Assembly: GCA_028282925.1 (NCBI GenBank)
Contig: JANQGV010000312.1
Coordinates: 1-62,362, forward strand
DNA: 62,362 bases
Direction of reading: 5' to 3'
Origin: Thermodesulfobacteriota bacterium
GTDB lineage: Bacteria > Desulfobacterota > WTBG01 > CAIYCZ01 > CAIRTM01
Every line of letters begins with the position of its first letter. Position 1 is the first letter of the stretch. The position numbers and the translations under genes are program-made. The notes under the pieces were generated by a model. It was not told the DNA's origin and did no database searches. It saw only the letters and a list, made by a program, of their open reading frames with translations. Shown piece after piece: positions 48,822 through 62,181 of the stretch.

Positions 48822-49991
48822 GTGGAAGAAGCATACGAACGTTGTGTATACCTTGAGAGGCTGGGCCTGTTCGGCTGTATCCAGTGCGGTAAATGTACGG
48901 CCGGATGCCCGCTTAATTATGTTACCACTCAGGATGAGCCGTTTAATATCCGCAAGCTCGTCTATGATGTGATTAATGCCCAGGGTGAAGAGCTCGCCAG
49001 CGAAAAGCATTACCTGTGGCAGTGCACAACCTGTTCAACCTGTTCGCTGCGCTGCCCCAAGGAGGTGGAGCCCAAGGATGTGGTGATGAACCTGCGCAGC
49101 ATCCTGGTTGAGGACGGCACCCTGCCTCCGGCAATCAGGGATGTGCTCAAAAGCATTTCCATTAATTACAATCCCTGGAGCCTGGGCAAGGAAAAACGGG
49201 CCGAATGGTTTCAGGACCTTGAGTTGAAAGACGCCGGCGAGGCCGAACTGCTGCTGTATGTGGGCTGTACTCCCGCCTTCGACAACCGGCTGCAAAAGGT
49301 TGCCCGGGCCATGGTTGCCTGCCTGCAGAAGGCCAAAATCGATTTCGGTATATTCGGAGTGGAGGAGATCTGCTGCGGAAACGAGATCAAGCGCATGGGC
49401 GATATCTGGAGCTTCGACGCCCTGCGCGAAGCCAACACCGAGATGTTCAACGGCTACGACAATATTAAAGAAGTCGTATCCATTTCTCCCCACTGCTTTA
49501 ACACCTTCAGCAATGAATACCCGGGACTGAATCCCAAGATAACCCATTATACGGAATTTTTCTCAAAGCTGATCGATGAAGGCCGCATGCCCAAGGGCAA
49601 AAGCTTCTCAAAAAAGGTCGTATACCACGACCCCTGTTTTCTGGGTAAGCAGAACGCGATCTATGAAGAGCCGCGCAACATTTTGAGCAACATCCGCGGT
49701 CTGAAGCTGATGGAGTTCGACCGCAACCGCGAGAGCAGCCTGTGCTGCGAAGGCGGCGGCGGACGCATGTGGATTGAGATTGAAGACGCTCCGGACCGGC
49801 TGGCCAATATCCGTGTACGGGACGCTGTGGAAATGGGAGCCGAGGTGATTGCAGTAGCGTGTCCGTTCTGCCTGCTGACCCTTGAGGACGCGGTCAAGGC
49901 CAATGACCTTGAAGAAAAACTTCAGGTTATGGATATTACGGAGATTCTTGCCCAAACATTAATCGAGAAGAAAGCAGCTAAGGAATCATGA
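48822..49991 (+). CDS. HdrCB-like heterodisulfide reductase fusion (BamD/HdrD-like)
   Basis: A 389-residue protein combining HdrC and HdrB features. Two 4Fe-4S motifs lie at the N-terminus (Cys 19/22/25/29, and CTTCSTCSLRCP near residue 67). Two complete CCG domains follow (VGCTPAFDN...CCGNEIKRMG...SPHC and HDPCFLGKQ...CCEGGGGRMW...CPFC), the ligands for noncubane 4Fe-4S clusters. GTG start with AGAGG upstream. It overlaps hdrA as ATGA. In the complex it would receive electrons from HdrA and deliver them to, or take them from, the ferredoxin and AOR subunits rather than reduce CoM-S-S-CoB. Confidence 0.88.
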   Translation: MEEAYERCVYLERLGLFGCIQCGKCTAGCPLNYVTTQDEPFNIRKLVYDVINAQGEELASEKHYLWQCTTCSTCSLRCPKEVEPKDVVMNLRSILVEDGTLPPAIRDVLKSISINYNPWSLGKEKRAEWFQDLELKDAGEAELLLYVGCTPAFDNRLQKVARAMVACLQKAKIDFGIFGVEEICCGNEIKRMGDIWSFDALREANTEMFNGYDNIKEVVSISPHCFNTFSNEYPGLNPKITHYTEFFSKLIDEGRMPKGKSFSKKVVYHDPCFLGKQNAIYEEPRNILSNIRGLKLMEFDRNRESSLCCEGGGGRMWIEIEDAPDRLANIRVRDAVEMGAEVIAVACPFCLLTLEDAVKANDLEEKLQVMDITEILAQTLIEKKAAKES

Positions 49992-51961
49992 GTGCAAAAA
50001 AAATAGGTGTCTATGTTTGCCATTGCGGTGTCAACATCGCCCAGACCGTGGGTATCGACGAACTGCTGGCCTTTGCCGAGACCCTTCCCGGCGTCAAGAT
50101 TGCCAAGAACTACATGTATATGTGCTCTGAGCCGGGGCAGGAACTGATCCGAAAAGACATTAAAGAAAAGGGCCTGAACCGTATTGTGGTTGCGGCCTGC
50201 TCGCCGCGCATGCATGAGCTTACGTTCCGTAACGCTCTTGAAAGCGCGGGCCTGAACCCCTACTGCCTTGAAATAGCCAATATCCGTGAGCATTGCTCCT
50301 GGGTCCACAAGGATGCCGAGCAGGCCACGGTTAAAGCCAAGGCCCTGCTGGCAGCCGCCGTTGCAAAGGCCGCCCTGCTGGAGCCGCTGAAAGAAAATTT
50401 TGTCGACGTGACCCCCACTGCAATGGTTGTGGGCGGCGGTATCGCCGGTATTCAGACTGCTCTTGATATTGCCGACAACGGGTTTAAGGTGTATCTGGTG
50501 GAGAAAGACCCCTCAATCGGCGGTCATATGATGCAGCTCGACAAAACTTTTCCCACCCTCGACTGCTCGGCCTGTATCCTGACCCCGAAAATGGCCGACA
50601 TCAAGAACCACCCCAATATCGAGCTCATGGCCTATAGCGAAGTTACAGACGTGCAGGGGTTTGTGGGTAATTTCAAGGTGACGGTGAACCGCAAGCCGCG
50701 CTACATCGACGAGAATATCTGTAATGCCTGCGGAAGCTGTGCCAGCTACTGTGCCATTGCCATCAAAGACAAGTTCAACGAAGGCCTGTCAAAGCTGCAG
50801 GCCCTGCATATACCCTTTCCCCAGGCGATCCCGGCCGCATTTATTGTAGACAAGAACCACTGCCGCTATTTTACGGAAAACACCTGCCGTCAGTGCGAGC
50901 AGGTATGTAAAGAACTGAACGCCATCAACCTCGACCAGCAGGAAGAACAGGTAACCCTTGACGTGGGCACCATCGTGGTGGCCACCGGCTTTGATACTTT
51001 TGATCCGAAAGAAAAGCCGGAACTGGGCTACACCCGCTACGATAATGTGATTACCGGCATGGAGTTCGAGCGCATTGTATCGGCCTCGGGGCCCAACCAG
51101 GGCGATATCCTCATTAACGGCAAGAAGCCCAAAGAGGTGGTGTTTATCCAGTGTGTCGGCTCCCGCGACAAGAGCGTGGGGAACGAGTATTGCTCGCGGG
51201 TGTGCTGCATGTATACCGCCAAGCATGCCCACTTGGTTAAAGAAAAAATGCCCGACGCCAAAATAACGATTTTTTATATCGACGTCCGGGCTTTCGGCAA
51301 GGGTTATGAAGAATTCTACGACCGCGTTAAGGGCGAAGGCGTTTACTACCGGCGCGGTAATGTGTCTGAAGTATACCGCAAGGGCGACAAACTGATATGC
51401 CGGGCTGAGGATACCCTGGAAGGCAAACCCATGGAAGTGCCGGCCGACCTGGTGGTGCTGGCGGTGGGTATGAAACCCAACCAGGGATCAAAGAATCTGG
51501 GCAAGCTGCTGAAACTGTCCAACTCCGCCGACGGCTTTTTCCTGGAAGCCCATCCCAAGCTGCGGCCGGTCAATTCAGGCAGCGACGGCGTATTTCTGGC
51601 AGGCTGCTGCCAGGGGCCCAAGGATATCCCCGATACGGTTGCCCAGGCCAGCGGCTCAGCGGCCCAGGCGTTGATGCCGCTCACCCAGGGTAAGGTTAAG
51701 ACCGAAACCATGGTTTCCAAGGTCCGGGCCGAGGCCTGCCGCGGCTGCGGCTATTGCGTTGAGGCCTGCCCCTATGATGCCATAGCCCTGGAAGAGCAGG
51801 TTGTGAACCGCAAGCCTAAAACGGTAGCGGCGGTTAATGAAGTATTATGTAAAAGCTGCGGCGCCTGTGTTGCCGTATGCTATTCCGGAGCAATTCAGCA
51901 GAGCGGCTTTACCGATGAGCAGCTGCTTGCTGTTATAAATTCAATCGGCGAGAGTTATTAA
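49988..51961 (+). CDS. hdrA: HdrA-like flavoprotein, putative bifurcating subunit
   Basis: A 657-residue HdrA. Seen: the N-terminal CHCGVNI (Cys 11/13), the FAD motif VVGGGIAGIQTALD (about 148-160), FPTLDCSACILTPKM with Cys 193/196 where some homologues have selenocysteine, an internal 4Fe-4S motif CNACGSCASYC, and two C-terminal 4Fe-4S motifs (CRGCGYCVEACP, CKSCGACVAVC). In methanogens and in Flx-Hdr complexes the HdrA flavin splits electron pairs between a high- and a low-potential acceptor, typically ferredoxin. The overlap with the HdrCB gene and the following MvhD-like gene strongly support one complex. Confidence 0.92.
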   Translation: MSAKKIGVYVCHCGVNIAQTVGIDELLAFAETLPGVKIAKNYMYMCSEPGQELIRKDIKEKGLNRIVVAACSPRMHELTFRNALESAGLNPYCLEIANIREHCSWVHKDAEQATVKAKALLAAAVAKAALLEPLKENFVDVTPTAMVVGGGIAGIQTALDIADNGFKVYLVEKDPSIGGHMMQLDKTFPTLDCSACILTPKMADIKNHPNIELMAYSEVTDVQGFVGNFKVTVNRKPRYIDENICNACGSCASYCAIAIKDKFNEGLSKLQALHIPFPQAIPAAFIVDKNHCRYFTENTCRQCEQVCKELNAINLDQQEEQVTLDVGTIVVATGFDTFDPKEKPELGYTRYDNVITGMEFERIVSASGPNQGDILINGKKPKEVVFIQCVGSRDKSVGNEYCSRVCCMYTAKHAHLVKEKMPDAKITIFYIDVRAFGKGYEEFYDRVKGEGVYYRRGNVSEVYRKGDKLICRAEDTLEGKPMEVPADLVVLAVGMKPNQGSKNLGKLLKLSNSADGFFLEAHPKLRPVNSGSDGVFLAGCCQGPKDIPDTVAQASGSAAQALMPLTQGKVKTETMVSKVRAEACRGCGYCVEACPYDAIALEEQVVNRKPKTVAAVNEVLCKSCGACVAVCYSGAIQQSGFTDEQLLAVINSIGESY

Positions 51962-51983
51962 CAAGGTTATACGAGGAACAAGC

Positions 51984-52418
51984 ATGGAATTTGAACCCAA
52001 GATTGTTTCATTTGTGTGCAACTGGTGTACGTATGCAGGGGCCGACCTTGCAGGCACCAGCAGGTTTACCTATCCGGCAAATGTCCGGTTGGTGCGCGTT
52101 ATGTGTTCCAGCCGCATCAACCCAGCCTTTATCGTTAATGCCCTGCTGCAGGGTGCCGACGGCGTGCTGGTATCAGGGTGTCATCCGGGAGAATGCCACT
52201 ATGTGAGCGGTAATTATATGGCCCGGCGGCGGCTGGTGCTGTTGCGGCGTTTTCTGGAACACCTGGGCATTCATCCGGACCGGTTCAGGATGAGCTGGGT
52301 TTCCGCTTCGGAAGGTGCCAAATGGGCGGAAGTGGTTAAGGAAGTAACCAATGATATTAAGGCTTTAGGCCCAAATGAAATAAAGAGAGAACAGGTATGC
52401 ATGCAACAGAGTCTCTAA
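51984..52418 (+). CDS. MvhD/FlxD-like 2Fe-2S electron-transfer subunit (BamF-like)
   Basis: A 144-residue MvhD-family protein, the adapter that passes electrons from a hydrogenase or Flx module to HdrA. Conserved Cys residues are in FVCNWCTYAGADLAG (Cys 12/15), VMCSSR (about 41) and GCHPGECHY (about 66 and 71). No selenocysteine is seen, unlike reports for some BamF. It starts 23 bp after hdrA and its end overlaps the next gene by 22 bp. Confidence 0.88.
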   Translation: MEFEPKIVSFVCNWCTYAGADLAGTSRFTYPANVRLVRVMCSSRINPAFIVNALLQGADGVLVSGCHPGECHYVSGNYMARRRLVLLRRFLEHLGIHPDRFRMSWVSASEGAKWAEVVKEVTNDIKALGPNEIKREQVCMQQSL

Positions 52419-53374
52419 GAAAAATTGCCAAAGATGTATTGTCGCGGGATGATGTGGCCTGCCTTGTCGGTTATGAAAAAGGCAGCTATGGATTTCGGGT
52501 AGCCCCGTGTGTGCTCACCTCACCGGATGAGGTCGACCGGCTGATATTCTCGCCGCTGTGCGTACACAATCTTGTAAACTATCTCACCCTTGAAAACATC
52601 GGCCCGCTGGGTAAGAAGGACATATCGGACGGCAAGATCGCCGTAGTGGTCAAGGGCTGCGACAGCCGTGCCGTTGCCATGGTGGCGGCCGAGAACGGCA
52701 TCGACCGCGACAAGCTGGTGGTGATCGGCGTTCATTCACCCGGCGTGGTTGATATAGCGAAGCTTGAAAAACGGTTTCCCGATGTAGTTGATCCGGCAGA
52801 AGTCAGCCTGCAGAACGGCAAGGTGCTTGTATCAGTAAACGGCAAGGCCGACGAAGTTCCCGCAGACGAGCTTTTAAGCGACAAGTGCAAAAGCTGCAAG
52901 GATTCAACCCCGGTTATTTACGACGAAATAGCGGGCGAAAAACGCGTCGGCGAGGAAGACACCTTTGCGGATGTAGCCGAAGAGGAAGGCAAGTCTCTGG
53001 AGGAAAAAGGGGCCAAATGGCAGCAGGAGCTTTCAAAGTGTATCCGCTGCTATGCCTGCCGCAATGTATGCCCGCTGTGTTACTGCAGCGACTGTGTGCT
53101 TGACCGGTTGCGCCCCCAGTTTATCCGCCGTTCGGTCGAGTTCAGCGAAAATCTGCACTTTCATATAACCAGAGCCTTTCATCTTGCCGGCCGCTGCATC
53201 GGCTGCGGCGAGTGCGCGCGGGTGTGTCCTCAGTCAATACCCCTGATGGACCTGAACCGTAAATTGGCAAAAGATGTTAAGGACCTTTTCGACTATGAGG
53301 CCGGGACCGACCCGGAAGCCAAACCGTTGTTTGCAACCTTTAAGCCCGAAGATCCTGACGAAGGAATCTTATAA
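52397..53374 (+). CDS. Flx-like iron-sulfur subunit (FlxC/FdhB-like)
   Basis: A 325-residue protein with an N-terminal region resembling F420-hydrogenase/formate-dehydrogenase beta subunits (VVVKGCDSRAVAMVA), a short Cys motif CKSCKDS, and two 4Fe-4S sites in CIRCYACRNVCPLCYCSDC and CIGCGECARVCP. It overlaps the MvhD-like gene and is followed after nine bases by the next subunit gene. It probably links the NAD(P)H-oxidising flavoprotein to MvhD/HdrA. Assignment as FlxC rather than FlxB is by order and length only. Confidence 0.8.
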   Translation: MHATESLRKIAKDVLSRDDVACLVGYEKGSYGFRVAPCVLTSPDEVDRLIFSPLCVHNLVNYLTLENIGPLGKKDISDGKIAVVVKGCDSRAVAMVAAENGIDRDKLVVIGVHSPGVVDIAKLEKRFPDVVDPAEVSLQNGKVLVSVNGKADEVPADELLSDKCKSCKDSTPVIYDEIAGEKRVGEEDTFADVAEEEGKSLEEKGAKWQQELSKCIRCYACRNVCPLCYCSDCVLDRLRPQFIRRSVEFSENLHFHITRAFHLAGRCIGCGECARVCPQSIPLMDLNRKLAKDVKDLFDYEAGTDPEAKPLFATFKPEDPDEGIL

Positions 53375-53383
53375 GAAAGAGCT

Positions 53384-54409
53384 ATGGATACATTGATTTT
53401 AGAAAAGGCACAATTAAAAAAGTTTTTAAAGTCTTTGAAGGATGCCCAGCTTATCGCACCCGTGGTAGACAACGGAAGCACCGTATTTCAGGTGGTTGAC
53501 GACATGGACAAGGCTGAGCTTGATCTTGACGACTATACGGCCACCATTAAAAAGGCGGTCTTTCCCCAGACGGAAACCATGTTTACGTTTGAACAGGGAG
53601 AAGGTAGCCTCAGCATAAGAGAGCCGGGCGCAATCAGCCGCAGGGTGATTTTCGGTATCAGGCCCTGTGATGCCAAGAGCTACGTTGTTCTTGATCCCCT
53701 GTTTCAAAAAGACTTTGACGACCCCTACTACAGTGCCAGGCGGGAGGCTAATGTCCTGATCGGGCATGCCTGTGCCGAGCCAACCAACCGGTGCTTTTGC
53801 CCGTCTGTGGGCGGCAGCCCAACCGGCACCGAAGGGTTGGACCTGCTTTTTACCGATATCGGAGACAGCTATTTTGTTGAGGTTTTTTCCGACAAAGGCA
53901 AAGAGATCGCACAGTCGGCCAAAAGTGTTTTGAAAAAAGCCGGCGCCGATCAGTCTGCCCAGAAAGAGAAGGCTGCTGAAGAAGCCCAGGGTAAAATACG
54001 GCGCTCGGTAGACCTGAAAATGATGCATGAAGCTCTGCCTAAAAGCTTTTCAGACGATTTCTGGCAAACAATGGGTAATAAGTGTATCGGGTGCGGCATC
54101 TGCACCTACAACTGCCCGACCTGCCACTGCTTCGATATTCAGGACGAGGGCGTGCCGCGTAGCGGCAGGCGCGTACGGGTATGGGATGCCTGTATGTACC
54201 CTGAATTTACGGTGCATGCCTCGGGTGAGAACCCGCGCAAAAACCGCGGCGACCGCATCCGTAACCGGATGCTGCACAAGTTCAGCTACTATCCGCAGAA
54301 CCTCGGCCATATCGGCTGCGTGGGATGCGGCAGGTGTATAGAGATGTGTCCTGTTAATGAAGATTTAATCGAAATTCTCACAAGGGTAAGGGAAGTTATC
54401 AATGAGTAA
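53384..54409 (+). CDS. Flx-like iron-sulfur subunit (FlxB; hydrogenase/sulfite-reductase A-like)
   Basis: A 341-residue subunit of the HydB/AsrA-like type. The N-terminal region has GIRPCDAKSYVVLDPLF and VLIGHACAEPTNRCFC. Two 4Fe-4S motifs follow (CIGCGICTYNCPTCHC and CVGCGRCIEMCPVN). It overlaps the flavoprotein gene by 8 bp. Such subunits sit between an NAD(P)H-binding flavoprotein and downstream clusters in sulfhydrogenase, anaerobic sulfite reductase and FlxABCD. Confidence 0.83.
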   Translation: MDTLILEKAQLKKFLKSLKDAQLIAPVVDNGSTVFQVVDDMDKAELDLDDYTATIKKAVFPQTETMFTFEQGEGSLSIREPGAISRRVIFGIRPCDAKSYVVLDPLFQKDFDDPYYSARREANVLIGHACAEPTNRCFCPSVGGSPTGTEGLDLLFTDIGDSYFVEVFSDKGKEIAQSAKSVLKKAGADQSAQKEKAAEEAQGKIRRSVDLKMMHEALPKSFSDDFWQTMGNKCIGCGICTYNCPTCHCFDIQDEGVPRSGRRVRVWDACMYPEFTVHASGENPRKNRGDRIRNRMLHKFSYYPQNLGHIGCVGCGRCIEMCPVNEDLIEILTRVREVINE

Positions 54410-55241
54410 TCCGTATATTCCTTACGAAGCCAAGATAAAGGATGTCCGCCAGGAAACAGACGGGGATCGTCCCATCAGAACGTTTACCGTGACATTCAAG
54501 GATAAAAAGGATCAAAAAGCGTTCAAGCATCTGCCGGGACAGTGTGCCATGGTGGGTCTGCCGGGCGTGGGCGAGAGCATGATCTCGATCTGCTCCTCTC
54601 CGACCCAGAGCGGCTATCTGCAGTTCAGCATCATGCGTATGGGTAAAGTAACCACCGCGCTGCACGAGCTTGAAAAGGGCGATGCCCTGACGATCCGGGG
54701 CCCTTACGGCGGCTCGACCTTTCCGGTTGACGAGTGGAAAGGGAAAAAGATCCTGACCATCGGCGGCGGTATCGGGCAGGCGCCCCTGCGCCCCATTATC
54801 AATTACGTGCTCGATAAAAAGAAAGACTATGCCGGGCTGGATATTATCTACGGAGCCCGCACCCCAGATGACCTGGTGTTTCTGGAAGAGTTGCAGGGCC
54901 TGAAAAAAGATAAAAAGGCCAAGGTACACCTGACGGTGGACAATGAGGCCGAAGGCTGGAAAGGCAACGTCGGCTTTGTGCCCCAGTACCTGCTGGACCT
55001 GAAACCCTCACCCAAGAACACCATTGCCATTACCTGCGGCCCGCCCATCATGATCAAGTTTGTGCTTGAGAACCTGGTGAAGCTGGGTTTCAAGGACGAT
55101 CAGATTTTCACCACCCTGGAAAACCGCATGAAGTGCGGTATCGGCAAGTGCGGCAAATGTAATGTTGGCAAGGTGTATGTCTGCAAAGACGGGCCTGTTT
55201 TCTCCTATGCCCAGTTCAAGGAACTGCCGCCGGATATGTAA
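54402..55241 (+). CDS. Flx-like FAD/NAD(P)-binding subunit (FlxA)
   Basis: A 279-residue ferredoxin-NADP-reductase-type flavoprotein that would oxidise or reduce NAD(P)H. Seen: FAD-binding LPGQCAMVGLPG and SICSSPTQ, the NAD-binding loop IGGGIGQAPLRPII, and GPPIMIKFVLENL. A C-terminal 2Fe-2S motif CGIGKCGKCNVGKVYVC ends the protein, as in HydG/AsrB-type proteins and NfnA. It is the last gene of the operon and is followed 34 bp later by a terminator. Confidence 0.87.
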   Translation: MSNPYIPYEAKIKDVRQETDGDRPIRTFTVTFKDKKDQKAFKHLPGQCAMVGLPGVGESMISICSSPTQSGYLQFSIMRMGKVTTALHELEKGDALTIRGPYGGSTFPVDEWKGKKILTIGGGIGQAPLRPIINYVLDKKKDYAGLDIIYGARTPDDLVFLEELQGLKKDKKAKVHLTVDNEAEGWKGNVGFVPQYLLDLKPSPKNTIAITCGPPIMIKFVLENLVKLGFKDDQIFTTLENRMKCGIGKCGKCNVGKVYVCKDGPVFSYAQFKELPPDM

Positions 55242-55746: not shown

Positions 55747-57129
55747 ATGAAAAAGACTGTAGGCGCGTTCATGAAAACAGGTAGAAAAACTTCAACAGTA
55801 TTCATTTCTTCACTTTTAACAATAGTATTAACAATAGGTTTTATTAATCAGTCAGTCGCCTGGGATGGAGATTATACTATACAGGACAGTGGCGATATTG
55901 CGGCACTGGCCGGCCATACAGAAGTAACGGGAACCTTGACGGTCGGTTTTCTTTCTAATCCCGGGGCTTCGTATACAACATTTACAAGTCTTGCAGGTCT
56001 TGAAAGCCTTACCAGTGTTGGTGGGGATTTGATTATACACTACAATGCAGGGCTGACAAATCTAACCGGGCTTGATAACCTTAGCAGTGTAGGTGGATCC
56101 GTCAGCATGCGGGATAATACAAGCCTGGTCAATATGATAGGTCTTGAAAGCTTAACGAGTATAAACGGCGATTTGACAATTATGAATCATTCAGCTCTTA
56201 CAAACCTCGACGGGCTGAATAATATTACAAATATCACTGGAAATGCAGAAATATCATACTGCGTTGCGAACAGTCTGTACGGTCTTCATAACGTTTCCAG
56301 CATTGGCGGTTATTTTAGAATTCAAACATGCCAGAGACTGACAAATTTAAACGGCCTCGAGGGTTTAAACATTGTAGGAGGGGATTTATTGTTATCTGAG
56401 AATACCGCTATGATCAATTTCAATGGATTGAACAATTTAAGCAGCGTTGGTGGTAATGTTAAAATTTTTTATACTTCAAGGCTTACCAGCCTAAGCGGTC
56501 TTGAGGGATTAACCAGTATTGCAGGTGCGTTGCGAATTAGTGATAATAATGGCTTGTTAAATGTAAACGGACTTGAAGCTCTTACCAGCATCGGTGGAGA
56601 TTTGAGCATTTTAGATAACATTGTCATAACGGATCTTTGTGCATTATACAATGTTGTGTTGGATGGCGCTAATTTAAAGGTATATTATAACTCTGACTTA
56701 TCAATGGAAACTGCAAACGCACTGGAAACACAACTTAGAAATAACGGCTTTACCGGAACTTCTAATATTCATGACAATGATGGCACTGGGCTGGTTAGCT
56801 GTGAAACGTTAATTGCCCTTTCTTCACTTGAAGCGATTCCGGCAAACGGGGCAGTAGCTTTACAATGGAGCACAGAATCAGAAATTGAAAACGCCGGGTT
56901 CAACATATACCGATCCCTTAACGGTGAAGAGTATGAGCAAATAAATAATGGACTTATTCCTGCGGAAGGATCACCCACCGAAGGTACGACATATGAATTA
57001 ATGGATACGGGTGTGCAGAACAGAAAGACATACCATTACAAGCTGGAGGATGTTGACCTGAATGGTACTACCACCATGCATGGGCCGGTATCTGCCACGC
57101 CGAGACTGATTTATGGTATTATTCAATAA
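55747..57129 (+). CDS. Secreted leucine-rich-repeat protein with C-terminal Fn3-like domain
   Basis: A 460-residue exported protein. A signal peptide spans about residues 1-38 (basic start, hydrophobic core, SVAW). About ten repeats of 22-25 residues follow with the pattern L-x-GL-E-x-LTSVGGDL-x-I-x-x-N, resembling receptor L-domain or leucine-rich folds. The last roughly 95 residues (LQWSTESEIENAGFNIYR, YHYKLEDVDLNG, HGPVSA) form the same Fn3-like domain that ends the 1289-residue protein at 28.8 kb. GAGAGGGG lies upstream of the ATG. It is probably a surface-exposed binding protein; no enzyme motif seen. Confidence 0.8.
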   Translation: MKKTVGAFMKTGRKTSTVFISSLLTIVLTIGFINQSVAWDGDYTIQDSGDIAALAGHTEVTGTLTVGFLSNPGASYTTFTSLAGLESLTSVGGDLIIHYNAGLTNLTGLDNLSSVGGSVSMRDNTSLVNMIGLESLTSINGDLTIMNHSALTNLDGLNNITNITGNAEISYCVANSLYGLHNVSSIGGYFRIQTCQRLTNLNGLEGLNIVGGDLLLSENTAMINFNGLNNLSSVGGNVKIFYTSRLTSLSGLEGLTSIAGALRISDNNGLLNVNGLEALTSIGGDLSILDNIVITDLCALYNVVLDGANLKVYYNSDLSMETANALETQLRNNGFTGTSNIHDNDGTGLVSCETLIALSSLEAIPANGAVALQWSTESEIENAGFNIYRSLNGEEYEQINNGLIPAEGSPTEGTTYELMDTGVQNRKTYHYKLEDVDLNGTTTMHGPVSATPRLIYGIIQ

Positions 57130-57207: not shown

Positions 57208-59154
57208 CTACGATGCGGCCTGAACCAGCGGAGCCACAACGTCCTGGGTGCTGATGATTTTGTCGATATCCAGCAGCATTTTTACGCTGCCATTGACCTT
57301 TGCCATGGCAAGCAGGTGGCTGGTATCGATCCCGAAGCCGAAAGAGGGTGTTTCCTCAATGTCGGAGGCGGTTATGTCCATAACCTCGGAGACGGCATCC
57401 ACCACAACGCCGACCTGTTTGATTGTTTCTCCCACGTCGAGCTGCAGGATAATGATACAGGTCCGCTCGTGGTATTCCTGCTGGTCCATATCAAATTTCA
57501 ATCTAAGGTCTATGATGGGGATTACGTTGCCGCGCAGATCGATTACGCCTTTGTAATAGTCGGGGGTTTTGGGCACGGTGCGTATCTCGCGCATGCCGAC
57601 TATTTCCTTGATCTTCAGAATGTCGATGCCGTATTCCTGTTCGCACAGGGTAAAGGTGATATATTTTCCTTCCTTGTTGAGAAGTGATTTTGCCTTGTCT
57701 TCGACCCCCTTATGCAGGATGCCGAGGATTTCGGTCGCCGAGTCACGCAGTTTCGATGCTTTGCGTTCCGTAATGCTTTCCTTGCAGGCCGCCTGGGCGA
57801 ATTCGGTGGTGACAAACTTTTCCAGGTCGATCAGCTTGCCGAAGCCCATTTGCTCAGACATGTAGCGCTGCATGCGGTCGAGGTCTTCTATAACAGGATA
57901 CAGGTCGCTGGTCTTAATGCCCTGGGCTTCCCGGAGCACGTTTTTCAGCAGCGGCACTTTCAGGCCAAGTGCCTTGTTGGGGTCAAGAAAGTTTACGGCA
58001 ACTTCGGCGGCGGAATCGGGTTTCTGGGATATGACCGACCCGGCCTGGGCCAGCATTTCGGTAAATTCGTACACAGCATCGCGGTGCTGCTCGATAAAGC
58101 TGTCACGCATTGCCAGGATACAGCAGGGATGGTTTTCCCAAAGCTCACCCGACAAAAACTGCAGATCGGCGGCGCCGGCGGCAATGGCTTTTGTTCCCAG
58201 GGGTTCGGCAACCATGTATCCGCAGGCGGCGGGGTTGGTTGCCAGGAACTCGGGCATTTTTATGGGCGGCACTACTTCAAAAGTTATATCATGGTGGCCT
58301 TCCATGCCGGCATCAAGACCGATCTGTTTAAAGAACATATGGGCCAGCATATGGTGCACCGACATTTTATGGGGGATATAGAATGTTTTACCCCTGAAAA
58401 AATTTTCATATGGATCCTCATACAGACCGTGTTTGCCGCGCACGAAAATACTGCCGTTTTTATGGGCGAACATGACCAGCTTTATGGGGGCACCATAGGC
58501 AAACAGGTCCATGGCGATGGGGGCAAGCACAAAGGCGGCGTCGATGCGGCCTTTTTCAAGGTCCTGCTGCACCGGGTTCCAGCCCGGCATGCATCTGGTT
58601 TCGAGTTCGAAATATTTGGGCTGGAGTTCACCCCGCTGAATCATGTTTTGCATCATACCCAGCAGCAGGTGGTCGGTGATCTGAATATGTGCTATGCGCA
58701 GCACGACTTTGCCGGAGGCCCCGATTTGGGGGGAAAGCTCTTCCTCGGGTATTTCCTCTTCCTCTTCGATCAGCCCCAGGGCTTCGTCTATTTTTTTTTG
58801 CAGCTCTTCGGCATTAAAAGGTTTTGCGATGAAGCTGCTGACCCCGGCACCGGAGGCTTTTTCGGCCTGCTCACGGTCACCCTGGCCGGTGGCCATAAGA
58901 AACGGTATATTCTTGCATTTTTCATCGGCGCGCACCCACAGCAGCAGCTCATAGCCGTCTTTTTCGGGCATATTCCAGTCGCTGATAATAAGGTCGATAT
59001 CGCCTTGTTCCTGCAGTTTTTCTATGGCATCATTGCCGTTTTCGGCAGAGACGATATTTTTATAACCCAGGGAGGAAATAACGCTTATTTCCATTTTTTG
59101 CATGAGGGGTGAATCTTCAACAAGAAGTATCTTGGTTTTTTCCGGGGTTGACAT
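57208..59154 (-). CDS. Receiver / NrtA-like substrate-binding / CheW fusion protein
   Basis: A 648-residue protein without a signal peptide, so cytoplasmic. Residues 8-125 are a receiver domain (acidic Glu 13/Asp 14, phospho-acceptor Asp 59 in IISDWNMP, Lys 111 in IAKPF). After an acidic linker, residues about 149-400 match NrtA/CmpA-type solute-binding domains (LRIAHIQITDHLLLGMM, GRIDAAFVLAPIAMDLFAYG, GYMVAEPLG). A helical part follows, then a CheW domain from about 500 (ITFTLCEQEYGIDILKIKEIV, GVIDLRGNVIPIIDLRLKF). CheW links receptors and CheA, so this may be a soluble scaffold that ties a ligand signal and phosphorylation to a chemosensory array. No chemotaxis genes are adjacent. Confidence 0.85.
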   Translation of the reverse strand: MSTPEKTKILLVEDSPLMQKMEISVISSLGYKNIVSAENGNDAIEKLQEQGDIDLIISDWNMPEKDGYELLLWVRADEKCKNIPFLMATGQGDREQAEKASGAGVSSFIAKPFNAEELQKKIDEALGLIEEEEEIPEEELSPQIGASGKVVLRIAHIQITDHLLLGMMQNMIQRGELQPKYFELETRCMPGWNPVQQDLEKGRIDAAFVLAPIAMDLFAYGAPIKLVMFAHKNGSIFVRGKHGLYEDPYENFFRGKTFYIPHKMSVHHMLAHMFFKQIGLDAGMEGHHDITFEVVPPIKMPEFLATNPAACGYMVAEPLGTKAIAAGAADLQFLSGELWENHPCCILAMRDSFIEQHRDAVYEFTEMLAQAGSVISQKPDSAAEVAVNFLDPNKALGLKVPLLKNVLREAQGIKTSDLYPVIEDLDRMQRYMSEQMGFGKLIDLEKFVTTEFAQAACKESITERKASKLRDSATEILGILHKGVEDKAKSLLNKEGKYITFTLCEQEYGIDILKIKEIVGMREIRTVPKTPDYYKGVIDLRGNVIPIIDLRLKFDMDQQEYHERTCIIILQLDVGETIKQVGVVVDAVSEVMDITASDIEETPSFGFGIDTSHLLAMAKVNGSVKMLLDIDKIISTQDVVAPLVQAAS

Positions 59155-59469
59155 TCGATATCCTCCAGCAAGGTCTGGAATGTATTACGGGTCGCAGCAG
59201 ATTTTTTTATCTTCTATAGTTGTAATGATAAAAAAGCGATTTGTCCAGAATGTGATTACACTTTATTCTCTTAAATCTATAGCATACATTTATAATATAT
59301 TCTGCATATAATAAAAGAATTAACTACATTTTATTCTTGAGCCCGATTGTTATGGTGCGTGTTAAGCCGACCAACGGTAAATCCTGCGGCCTGTATGGCC
59401 TGCTACCGCTATCAAAATAGCATTATAAAGCGATACGTACTTATACTTATTTTATAAAACAAAAAACCC
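59155..59469. other. 315-bp non-coding gap upstream of the REC-SBP-CheW gene
   Basis: A+T-rich promoter region of the minus-strand fusion gene. A TATCCTCC just beyond its start is the ribosome-binding site. A GGCC-TGTAT-GGCC short palindrome at about 59388-59400 is the only other structure seen. Confidence 0.6.
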
Positions 59470-59888: not shown

Positions 59889-61295
59889 CTACCAGCCCAG
59901 GGTCAGGTACGAATGCATGGAATCGGCAGCTTTGCGCCCGGCACCCATGGCAAGAATAACGGTTGCGGACCCGGTAACAATATCGCCCCCGGCCCATACG
60001 CCCTTGAGGCTCGTTTTCCCGGTTTCGGGGTCAGCATCAATATAGCCCCATTTATTGAGCTTCAGGCCTTCGGTGGAGTGGGTCAACAGGGGATTTGCTC
60101 CCGATCCAACGGCCACAATCACCAGGTCGCACTCAAGGCGGAACTCCGATCCTTCAATGGGGATCGGCCGGCGCCTTCCAGAGGCATCCGGCTCGCCAAG
60201 CTCCATTTTCAGACATTCCATACCGCACACCCGTCCGCTGTCGTTGCCGATAAATCGGGTAGGGTTGGTAAGAAGGAAAAACTCAATTCCTTCCTCTTCG
60301 GCATGGTGTATTTCGGCTGTTCGGGCCGGCATTTCCTGGCGTGAGCGGCGGTAAACGATCTGAACAGACTCCGCACCAAGCCGCATGGCGGTGCGGGCGG
60401 AATCCATGGCAACGTTGCCGGCGCCAAGTACCGCTACCCGTTTGCCCCGGGGGATAGGTGTGTCGTAATCGGGAAACCGGTAGGCCTTCATGAGATTTGC
60501 GCGGGTCAGATATTCATTGGCCGACAATATGCCGATAAGGTTTTCGCCGGGAAGGTTCATGAATGTCGGCAGCCCGGCCCCAACACCAAGAAAAATTGCA
60601 TTGTAGTTTTCAGCAAAGAGCTCATCAAGGGTTACGGTTCGGCCGACCACCGTATTGCATAGAAGATTGACTCCCTGCCGTTCGAGCAGGGCCACTTCGG
60701 CAAAAACAATTTCCTTGGGCAGCCTGAACTCGGGAATGCCATAGACCAGAACCCCGCCCGGTTTATGAAATGCTTCATAAACCGTCACTTCATGGCCTTT
60801 GGCAATCAGGTCGCCGGCAACGGTCAGACCGGCAGGCCCCGACCCGACCACGGCCACCCGCTTTCCTGTTGAGGGAGCCGGGGAAGGGATTTCAGCCGCA
60901 CCGTGGGAGCGGGCATAGTCAGCGGCAAAACGCTCCAGGTTGCCGATAGCAACGGGCTCACCCTTTTTTGCGAGGATGCATTTGCCTTCGCACTGAATTT
61001 CCTGGGGGCATACCCGTCCGCAGACGGCGGGAAGGCTGTTCTTTTCCCAAACGCTTGTTATGGCTTCAATGTATTTTCCTTCTTTTATAAGGCCGATAAA
61101 CGCGGGGATGTCGATTTCAACCGGGCATCCTTCTGCGCAGGCCGGCGATTTGCACTGCAGGCATCGGGCTGCTTCTTCCATGGCCATTTCAGGGGTGTAG
61201 CCCAGGGGAACTTCGTCAAAATTTCTTCTACGCTTTTCAGCGGCCTGTTCAGGCATGGGTATACGGGTCTTTTTCCCTTTTGCTTTTTCAGTCAT
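59889..61295 (-). CDS. nfnB: NfnB: large subunit of NADH-dependent ferredoxin:NADP oxidoreductase
   Basis: A 468-residue GltD-family flavoprotein. An N-terminal Cys motif (CLQCKSPACAEGCPVEIDIP, and CGRVCPQEIQCEGKC) binds 4Fe-4S clusters. The FAD motif VVGSGPAGLTVAGDL and the NADPH motif VLGAGNVAMDSARTAMRLG follow. GltD-family proteins also act with glutamate synthase, but the adjacent NfnA-type gene 52 bp upstream fixes the assignment. NfnAB reduces NADP with NADH and reduced ferredoxin by flavin-based bifurcation and confurcation. AGGAT(T) lies upstream of the ATG. Confidence 0.9.
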   Translation of the reverse strand: MTEKAKGKKTRIPMPEQAAEKRRRNFDEVPLGYTPEMAMEEAARCLQCKSPACAEGCPVEIDIPAFIGLIKEGKYIEAITSVWEKNSLPAVCGRVCPQEIQCEGKCILAKKGEPVAIGNLERFAADYARSHGAAEIPSPAPSTGKRVAVVGSGPAGLTVAGDLIAKGHEVTVYEAFHKPGGVLVYGIPEFRLPKEIVFAEVALLERQGVNLLCNTVVGRTVTLDELFAENYNAIFLGVGAGLPTFMNLPGENLIGILSANEYLTRANLMKAYRFPDYDTPIPRGKRVAVLGAGNVAMDSARTAMRLGAESVQIVYRRSRQEMPARTAEIHHAEEEGIEFFLLTNPTRFIGNDSGRVCGMECLKMELGEPDASGRRRPIPIEGSEFRLECDLVIVAVGSGANPLLTHSTEGLKLNKWGYIDADPETGKTSLKGVWAGGDIVTGSATVILAMGAGRKAADSMHSYLTLGW

Positions 61296-61347
61296 AGAAT
61301 CCTCCGTTTTTTATGCTTCGTGACAGGGCAATAGCGACGGGATACGG

Positions 61348-62181
61348 TTATGATCCCAGTTTGCAGGCATGTTTTTCAGAGCTCTGTTCTTCATCGGTGC
61401 GATAGGCCTGCAGGCGCTGCATAAGTTGATCGAAATCGACCTTATGACCGTCAAACTCAGGGCCGTCAACGCAGGCAAACTTGTTCTGCCCGTCAACGGA
61501 AACCCGGCAGCAGCCGCACATGCCGGTGCCGTCGATCATGATGGGATTCAAGCTGACAAGGGTCTTAACGCCATGGGGCCGGGTAATGTCACAAACGAAC
61601 TTCATCATGGGTACCGGGCCGATCCCCACGACCAGCCCTACCTGCTCTTTTTCGAGGATGTCCCGCAGGATATCGGTGACAAAGCCCTTGTGGCCGTATG
61701 AGCCGTCGTCGGTGCAGACATGCAGTTCATCCGATACGGTGTTCATGCGGTCCTCCAGGATCAGGAGATCCTTGGTTCGGGCGCCGATTATGCTGATGAC
61801 ACGGTTTTCCTTTCGGTGCAGTCCGCGGGTTATGGGATGCAGTACGGCAACTCCTGTTCCGCCGCCCACACACACCACGGTGCCGACTTTTTCGAGATGT
61901 GTCGGCTGGCCCAGCGGGCCAATGACATCCAGGTATCCGTCACCCTCTTGCAGCTCCTTGAAGAGGGCTGTGGAGCGGCCGACAACCATGTAAATGACCG
62001 TGATGGTTCCCTGATCGGGGTGTGTGTCTGCCACTGTCAAGGGAATCCGCTCACCGGTCTCATTTGCCTTCAGGATCACAAATTGACCGGGCTTTGCTTT
62101 GCGGGCAATAAGCGGGGCTTCGATTTCATTAAGCACCACGGTACCTTTAGACATTTCTTCGCGCTTAATAATTTGAAACAT
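61348..62181 (-). CDS. nfnA: NfnA: small subunit of NADH-dependent ferredoxin:NADP oxidoreductase
   Basis: A 277-residue ferredoxin-NADP-reductase-like subunit that binds FAD, NAD(H) and one 2Fe-2S cluster. Seen: KPGQFVILKANETGERIPLTV (FAD), VCVGGGTGVAVLHPI (NAD), GPVPMMKFVCD, and a C-terminal cluster motif GTGMCGCCRVSVDG...FACVDGPEFDGH. It is the first gene of the pair, with the nfnB start 52 bp after its stop. A related flavoprotein (FlxA at 54.4 kb) belongs to the separate Hdr complex. Confidence 0.92.
   Translation of the reverse strand: MFQIIKREEMSKGTVVLNEIEAPLIARKAKPGQFVILKANETGERIPLTVADTHPDQGTITVIYMVVGRSTALFKELQEGDGYLDVIGPLGQPTHLEKVGTVVCVGGGTGVAVLHPITRGLHRKENRVISIIGARTKDLLILEDRMNTVSDELHVCTDDGSYGHKGFVTDILRDILEKEQVGLVVGIGPVPMMKFVCDITRPHGVKTLVSLNPIMIDGTGMCGCCRVSVDGQNKFACVDGPEFDGHKVDFDQLMQRLQAYRTDEEQSSEKHACKLGS

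Follow-up and report, generated by a model that had tools for sequence, protein, structure and literature searches.

A soluble protein with receiver, solute-binding and CheW domains as a putative accessory chemosensory coupling protein in a Thermodesulfobacteriota bacterium

The analyzed window comprises the 62,362 nucleotides of contig JANQGV010000312.1 (assembly GCA_028282925.1) from a Thermodesulfobacteriota bacterium. An open reading frame on its minus strand, running from 59154 to 57208 with an ATG start and no internal stops, encodes a protein of 648 aa. A Pfam scan reveals a receiver, then a solute-binding protein (SBP) domain, then a CheW domain, all three matches being far above the curated cut-offs. 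The original prediction, which named no strand, had placed these three domains in one protein and is confirmed on this point. The gene and its parts are listed in Table 1. No che genes flank the gene in the window, where it stands alone. Genes for HdrA-like, iron-sulfur and FAD-NAD electron-transfer proteins lie on either side (49988-55241, plus strand; 59889-62181, minus strand). A convergent gene (55747-57129, plus strand) encodes a predicted exported protein of 460 aa, whose repeats match the Receptor L domain (PF01030, 8e-15); this family takes its name from animal growth-factor receptors. Pattern scans for promoters, terminators and sigma-54 sites returned no more than chance.

Table 1. 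Features of the gene encoding the receiver-SBP-CheW protein.
Feature	Position in window	Strand	Evidence
Receiver-SBP-CheW gene, 648 aa	57208..59154	-	ORF, Pfam scan, same-order homologues
Ribosome-binding site GGAGG, 7 nt upstream of ATG	59162..59166	-	Read from sequence
CheY-like receiver, residues 9-122	58789..59130	-	Pfam, CheY fold match, conserved residues
D59 codon, predicted phosphorylation site	58978..58980	-	Translation; conserved across 51-member alignment
SBP domain (NMT1_2 / NitT-TauT), residues ~146-460, both lobes complete	57775..58719	-	Pfam, AlphaFold, 3un6
C344-C345 of WxxHPCC motif	58120..58125	-	Alignments
Variable linker, residues ~461-497	57664..57774	-	Low pLDDT, poorly conserved
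CheW domain, residues 498-636	57247..57663	-	Pfam, E. coli CheW alignment, fold match 8c5v

The same architecture is found in independent genomes with 46-62% identity, which rules out an assembly chimera, a frameshift or chance as the origin of the gene. By inspection, neither a signal peptide nor a transmembrane segment was seen and the SBP domain directly follows the receiver, in agreement with the soluble cytoplasmic protein proposed originally. The full-length AlphaFold model has a pLDDT of 81.9. Its least confident part is the linker (pLDDT below 50 at model residues 483-490), and both the linker position and the packing of the domains are of low confidence.

The receiver (Response_reg, residues 9-122, 1e-23) matches CheY in the full-length model with a TM of target of 0.92. 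The phosphoacceptor D59 is conserved in the full-length relatives together with E13, D14, T89 and K111, so that the receiver is intact, as had been predicted. The CheW domain (PF01584, residues 498-636, 4e-34, 117.6 bits) matches the CheW of E. coli core signalling units (8c5v) with a TM of target of 0.84. Its residues E517 and R541 are invariant in the relatives and align with E38 and R62 of E. coli CheW, presumably the conserved salt bridge reported for that protein. The Pfam and fold matches of this C-terminal CheW fit a chemosensory array. Unlike methyl-accepting chemoreceptors, the protein lacks the MCPsignal hairpin domain (PF00015), for which the Pfam scan gave no match.

The central region was assigned to NMT1_2 (PF13379) on residues 148-386 with 4e-26 and 92.7 bits against a cut-off of 24.7. 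Modelled alone in AlphaFold from 30 sequences, the SBP domain reaches a pLDDT of 92.7 and a pTM of 0.90, and its best PDB match is 3un6 of S. aureus (TM 0.79/0.88), with the CmpC regulatory domain, NrtA and TauA ranking next. The middle of the protein is therefore a true SBP fold. 3UN6, the closest solved structure, differs from our protein in being the binding component of an ABC import system and not a signalling protein.

In 51 aligned receiver-SBP proteins, H156, T160, D161, H162, W192, H231, P261, H262, S265, H267, M300, E317, W339, H342, C344 and C345 are invariant or nearly so, and the pocket ranks among the best-conserved parts of the protein. C345 of the HPCC motif aligns with K269 in the HPxK motif of NrtA, which we take to be the nitrate-coordinating lysine, and is a Cys in all 51 relatives. 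The alignment shows that H231, H262, S265, H267, M300, E317 and both Cys residues are shared with 3un6. The pocket thus appears to resemble that of the zinc-bound S. aureus 3UN6 rather than that of nitrate-binding NrtA, and the NrtA/CmpA-like character predicted for this domain applies to the fold but does not extend to the pocket. Sensing of nitrate or bicarbonate as the default was dropped, as the lysine at K269 is a Cys in every member; judged from these residues, the ligand is probably neither. Because a 3UN6-type pocket contains several His, a Met and a Cys pair, a metal, or some other compound bound by HPCC-type NitT/TauT transporters, is weakly suggested as a candidate. HPCC-type NitT/TauT transporters are encoded beside the receiver-SBP gene in relatives, and contig C60 of the same genome carries an exported HPCC-type binding protein with its permease and ATPase. 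3UN6 is metal-binding, and related NitT/TauT transporters were suggested as metal ion importers for Ni-CODH (PMC6344411).

The same domain order is present in more than 30 other genes, and the three Pfam domains are found in 18 of 18 aligned full-length proteins. Of 57 sampled relatives, four carry full-length homologues with 51-62% identity. Scanning 84,980 species genomes by peptide patterns, which makes all counts lower bounds, yielded 14 further full-length genes (L033-L046, the reading frame of L044 being disrupted) in Desulfobacterales, Desulfobulbaceae, Desulfuromonadaceae and Melioribacteraceae, and about 35 more genes matching only residues 1 to ~460. In the phylum sample, the SBP domain was found at E <1e-60 in 20 of 395 genomes and 13 of 245 genera; all but one of the 20 (G092, cut by a contig end) possess a copy in open frame of 645-734 codons. 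The gene is absent from the nearest sampled relatives of the same family and order, and its distribution is consequently patchy.

Phylogenetic analysis places the receiver-SBP core in one clade against transporter and cytoplasmic SBPs (support 98/97). The C-terminal partner of this core is CheW, a CheA core with two CheW, or nothing, and a tandem form exists as well. The CheA fusion (L049:7983-11195, 1071 aa) joins receiver-SBP to a CheA dimerisation/kinase core and two CheW domains, reaches the 3' end of its locus, and belongs to the same MAG as the full-length receiver-SBP-CheW gene of L033. The tandem protein (L051:7247-10864, 1205 aa) is arranged as receiver-SBP-receiver-SBP-CheW. Stand-alone receiver-SBP proteins of the Desulfobacter and Desulfobacula type have ~457 aa. 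A further gene (L048:7989-9815) encodes receiver-SBP and then a long EEVVQEEVAQ repeat; because the contig ends within this gene, its lack of CheW does not indicate a distinct form. The CheW domains of 15 of the 18 full-length members make up one clade (96/94), and a single fusion event may lie behind the CheW-bearing members.

The focal genome encodes 16 CheW domains, 35 MCP-signal matches (~30 genes) and five CheA proteins. In genome G205 (copy L119 6604-8739) the homologue is part of a che operon with the order cheW-mcp-mcp-mcp-[gene]-mcp-cheR-cheB-cheA-cheY-cheD-HDOD. In L125, L034 and L048 the homologue is immediately preceded by an mcp gene, the receiver-SBP gene of L048 following cheW and a CZB-type MCP gene; in L035, cheA and a receiver gene are upstream, and L057 displays cheW-cheA-cheD-HDOD-cheB-cheD-[receiver-SBP]. 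CheA (H-kinase_dim) is present in 20 of 20 gene-positive genomes of the phylum sample versus 140 of 198 in the background, a difference that is suggestive only, since shared ancestry weakens the test.

A conserved Desulfobacter-type operon with receiver-SBP was found in L054:4127-10969 and about 25 similar loci (L052-L081). It encodes an SBP without signal peptide, an ATPase, a Tat-exported SBP, a permease, receiver-SBP and an acidic ORF of ~181-287 aa without Pfam match; an Hpt protein and an NFACT-R-like protein are often present, and cheD is divergent upstream in many. By inspection, the focal SBP has no export signal, in contrast to exported transport SBPs such as the Tat-SBP of L054. A second HPCC-motif SBP of ~306-330 aa without signal peptide adjoins the receiver-SBP-CheW gene on the same strand in L085 (8.3-9.2 kb, genome G051) and L121 (genome G390). 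DUF169-like genes (PF02596 in L035) lie at most two genes from the receiver-SBP-CheW gene in L035, L037 and L041. A plasmid search returned one weak ABC binding protein and nothing else.

Several known systems share features with this protein. In CheWS of Treponema denticola, CheW is joined to a CheR-like sensor that binds SAM within the array, showing that a soluble sensor attached to CheW can function there alongside classical CheW (PMC10653840). Our protein is likewise a soluble CheW protein with a predicted cytoplasmic small-molecule sensor and coexists with classical CheW; however, its sensor is an SBP fold and not a CheR-like SAM-binding domain, and in CheWS the sensor is C-terminal and a receiver is absent. 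The soluble CheW-linked sensor proposed originally thus has a characterized precedent in CheWS (PMC10653840). CheV resembles our protein in being soluble, in having one CheW and one intact phosphorylatable receiver, and in occurring in organisms with many receptors (PMC12691637). Its phospho-mimic binds only some receptors, and it has been proposed as a phosphate sink (PMC12691637). Unlike our protein, CheV has an N-terminal CheW followed by a C-terminal receiver, with nothing between and no ligand-binding domain, so that the order is reversed. NasS of Paracoccus and relatives is a cytoplasmic NrtA-like sensor with all nitrate residues kept (PMC3795266). It shares the NrtA-type fold without signal peptide, but acts on NasT, possesses neither receiver nor CheW, and has nitrate residues that are not kept in our protein. 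The regulatory domain of CmpC and NrtC (PDB 9uai, 8wm7) has the same fold and lies on the cytoplasmic side of the membrane, although it is part of an ABC-transporter ATPase and has another pocket.

We favor, with moderate confidence, the interpretation that the protein serves chemosensory arrays as an accessory coupling protein and is gated by a ligand in the cytosol. That it looks like an additional coupling protein follows from the homologue whose che operon also holds four MCP genes and an ordinary cheW. In this model, CheW would insert into the CheA/CheW rings of the array next to ordinary CheW, and the SBP domain would close around a small cytoplasmic ligand and open again. The SBP state would be passed via the short linker to CheW and would alter CheA activity or array composition; in reporting cytosolic ligand occupancy to CheA, the protein would be similar to CheWS. 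CheA would phosphorylate the CheY-like receiver, which may tune or reset this output in the manner of CheV.

The same two signalling parts in CheV, itself proposed as a phosphate sink (PMC12691637), would also be compatible with a CheV-type phosphate sink or adaptation protein whose SBP is a passive spacer or dead relic, and fusions of unused domains do occur. We consider this quite unlikely, as a relic would decay, whereas the fold is complete and the pocket is among the most conserved parts of the 51 relatives. A soluble receptor that replaces an MCP and activates CheA alone is very improbable, although input and array-binding domains are combined in one protein and, in the L049 relative, this input module is attached directly to a CheA core. 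The receptor signalling hairpin is absent, ~30 MCP genes and five CheA are encoded in the same genome, and homologues adjoin MCP genes and ordinary cheW, in one case four MCPs; the replacement of a transmembrane receptor in the original prediction is not supported by these data.

The stand-alone receiver-SBP genes in NitT/TauT ABC-transporter operons, often with an Hpt protein, could instead point to a NasS-like metabolic sensor chiefly regulating a transporter or its expression, with CheW merely tethering it to the array or to a non-motility (ACF) pathway. NasS and the CmpC/NrtC regulatory domain are indeed cytoplasmic regulators of the SBP fold. Yet the CheW fusions and several che-operon positions would then be unnecessary, and the conserved neighbours that we inspected include no ANTAR protein or other partner binding RNA or DNA, which makes this explanation unlikely. 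The stand-alone receiver-SBP form does without CheW, so the core may act through a different partner.

A broader and more tentative proposal, which we regard as possible but doubtful, is that receiver-SBP originated from a metal-type NitT/TauT binding protein and serves as a cytoplasmic input cassette that can be reused, plugging into arrays at the CheW or CheA level and bypassing chemoreceptors. If so, occupancy by a cytosolic transport-type ligand, gated by phosphorylation, would enter the array without chemoreceptors, and the same binding fold would tune both taxis and import of one compound. Under the favored coupling-protein interpretation, the array would probably read a substance inside the cell through this protein.

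No description of a receiver-SBP-CheW protein, NMT1 plus CheW architectures included, and no characterized protein of the same order were found in the literature searched, as the original prediction had supposed, and a survey of CheA architectures does not mention NMT1, SBP or solute-binding. The CheWS paper counted 30 undescribed CheW architectures in Pfam and proposed chemotactic sensing via a domain fused to CheW as perhaps widespread (PMC10653840). Receiver-NMT1_2-CheW is possibly among those 30 architectures (PMC10653840). The receiver-SBP-CheW family is a testable case of such sensing, in which the binding fold is well understood and receiver and CheW each occur once, and would help to explain the purpose of a receiver within a coupling protein. 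Ligands can be screened on the input domain produced in isolation, and the stand-alone form is carried by the cultured relatives Desulfobacter latus, D. vibrioformis and Desulfospira joergensenii.
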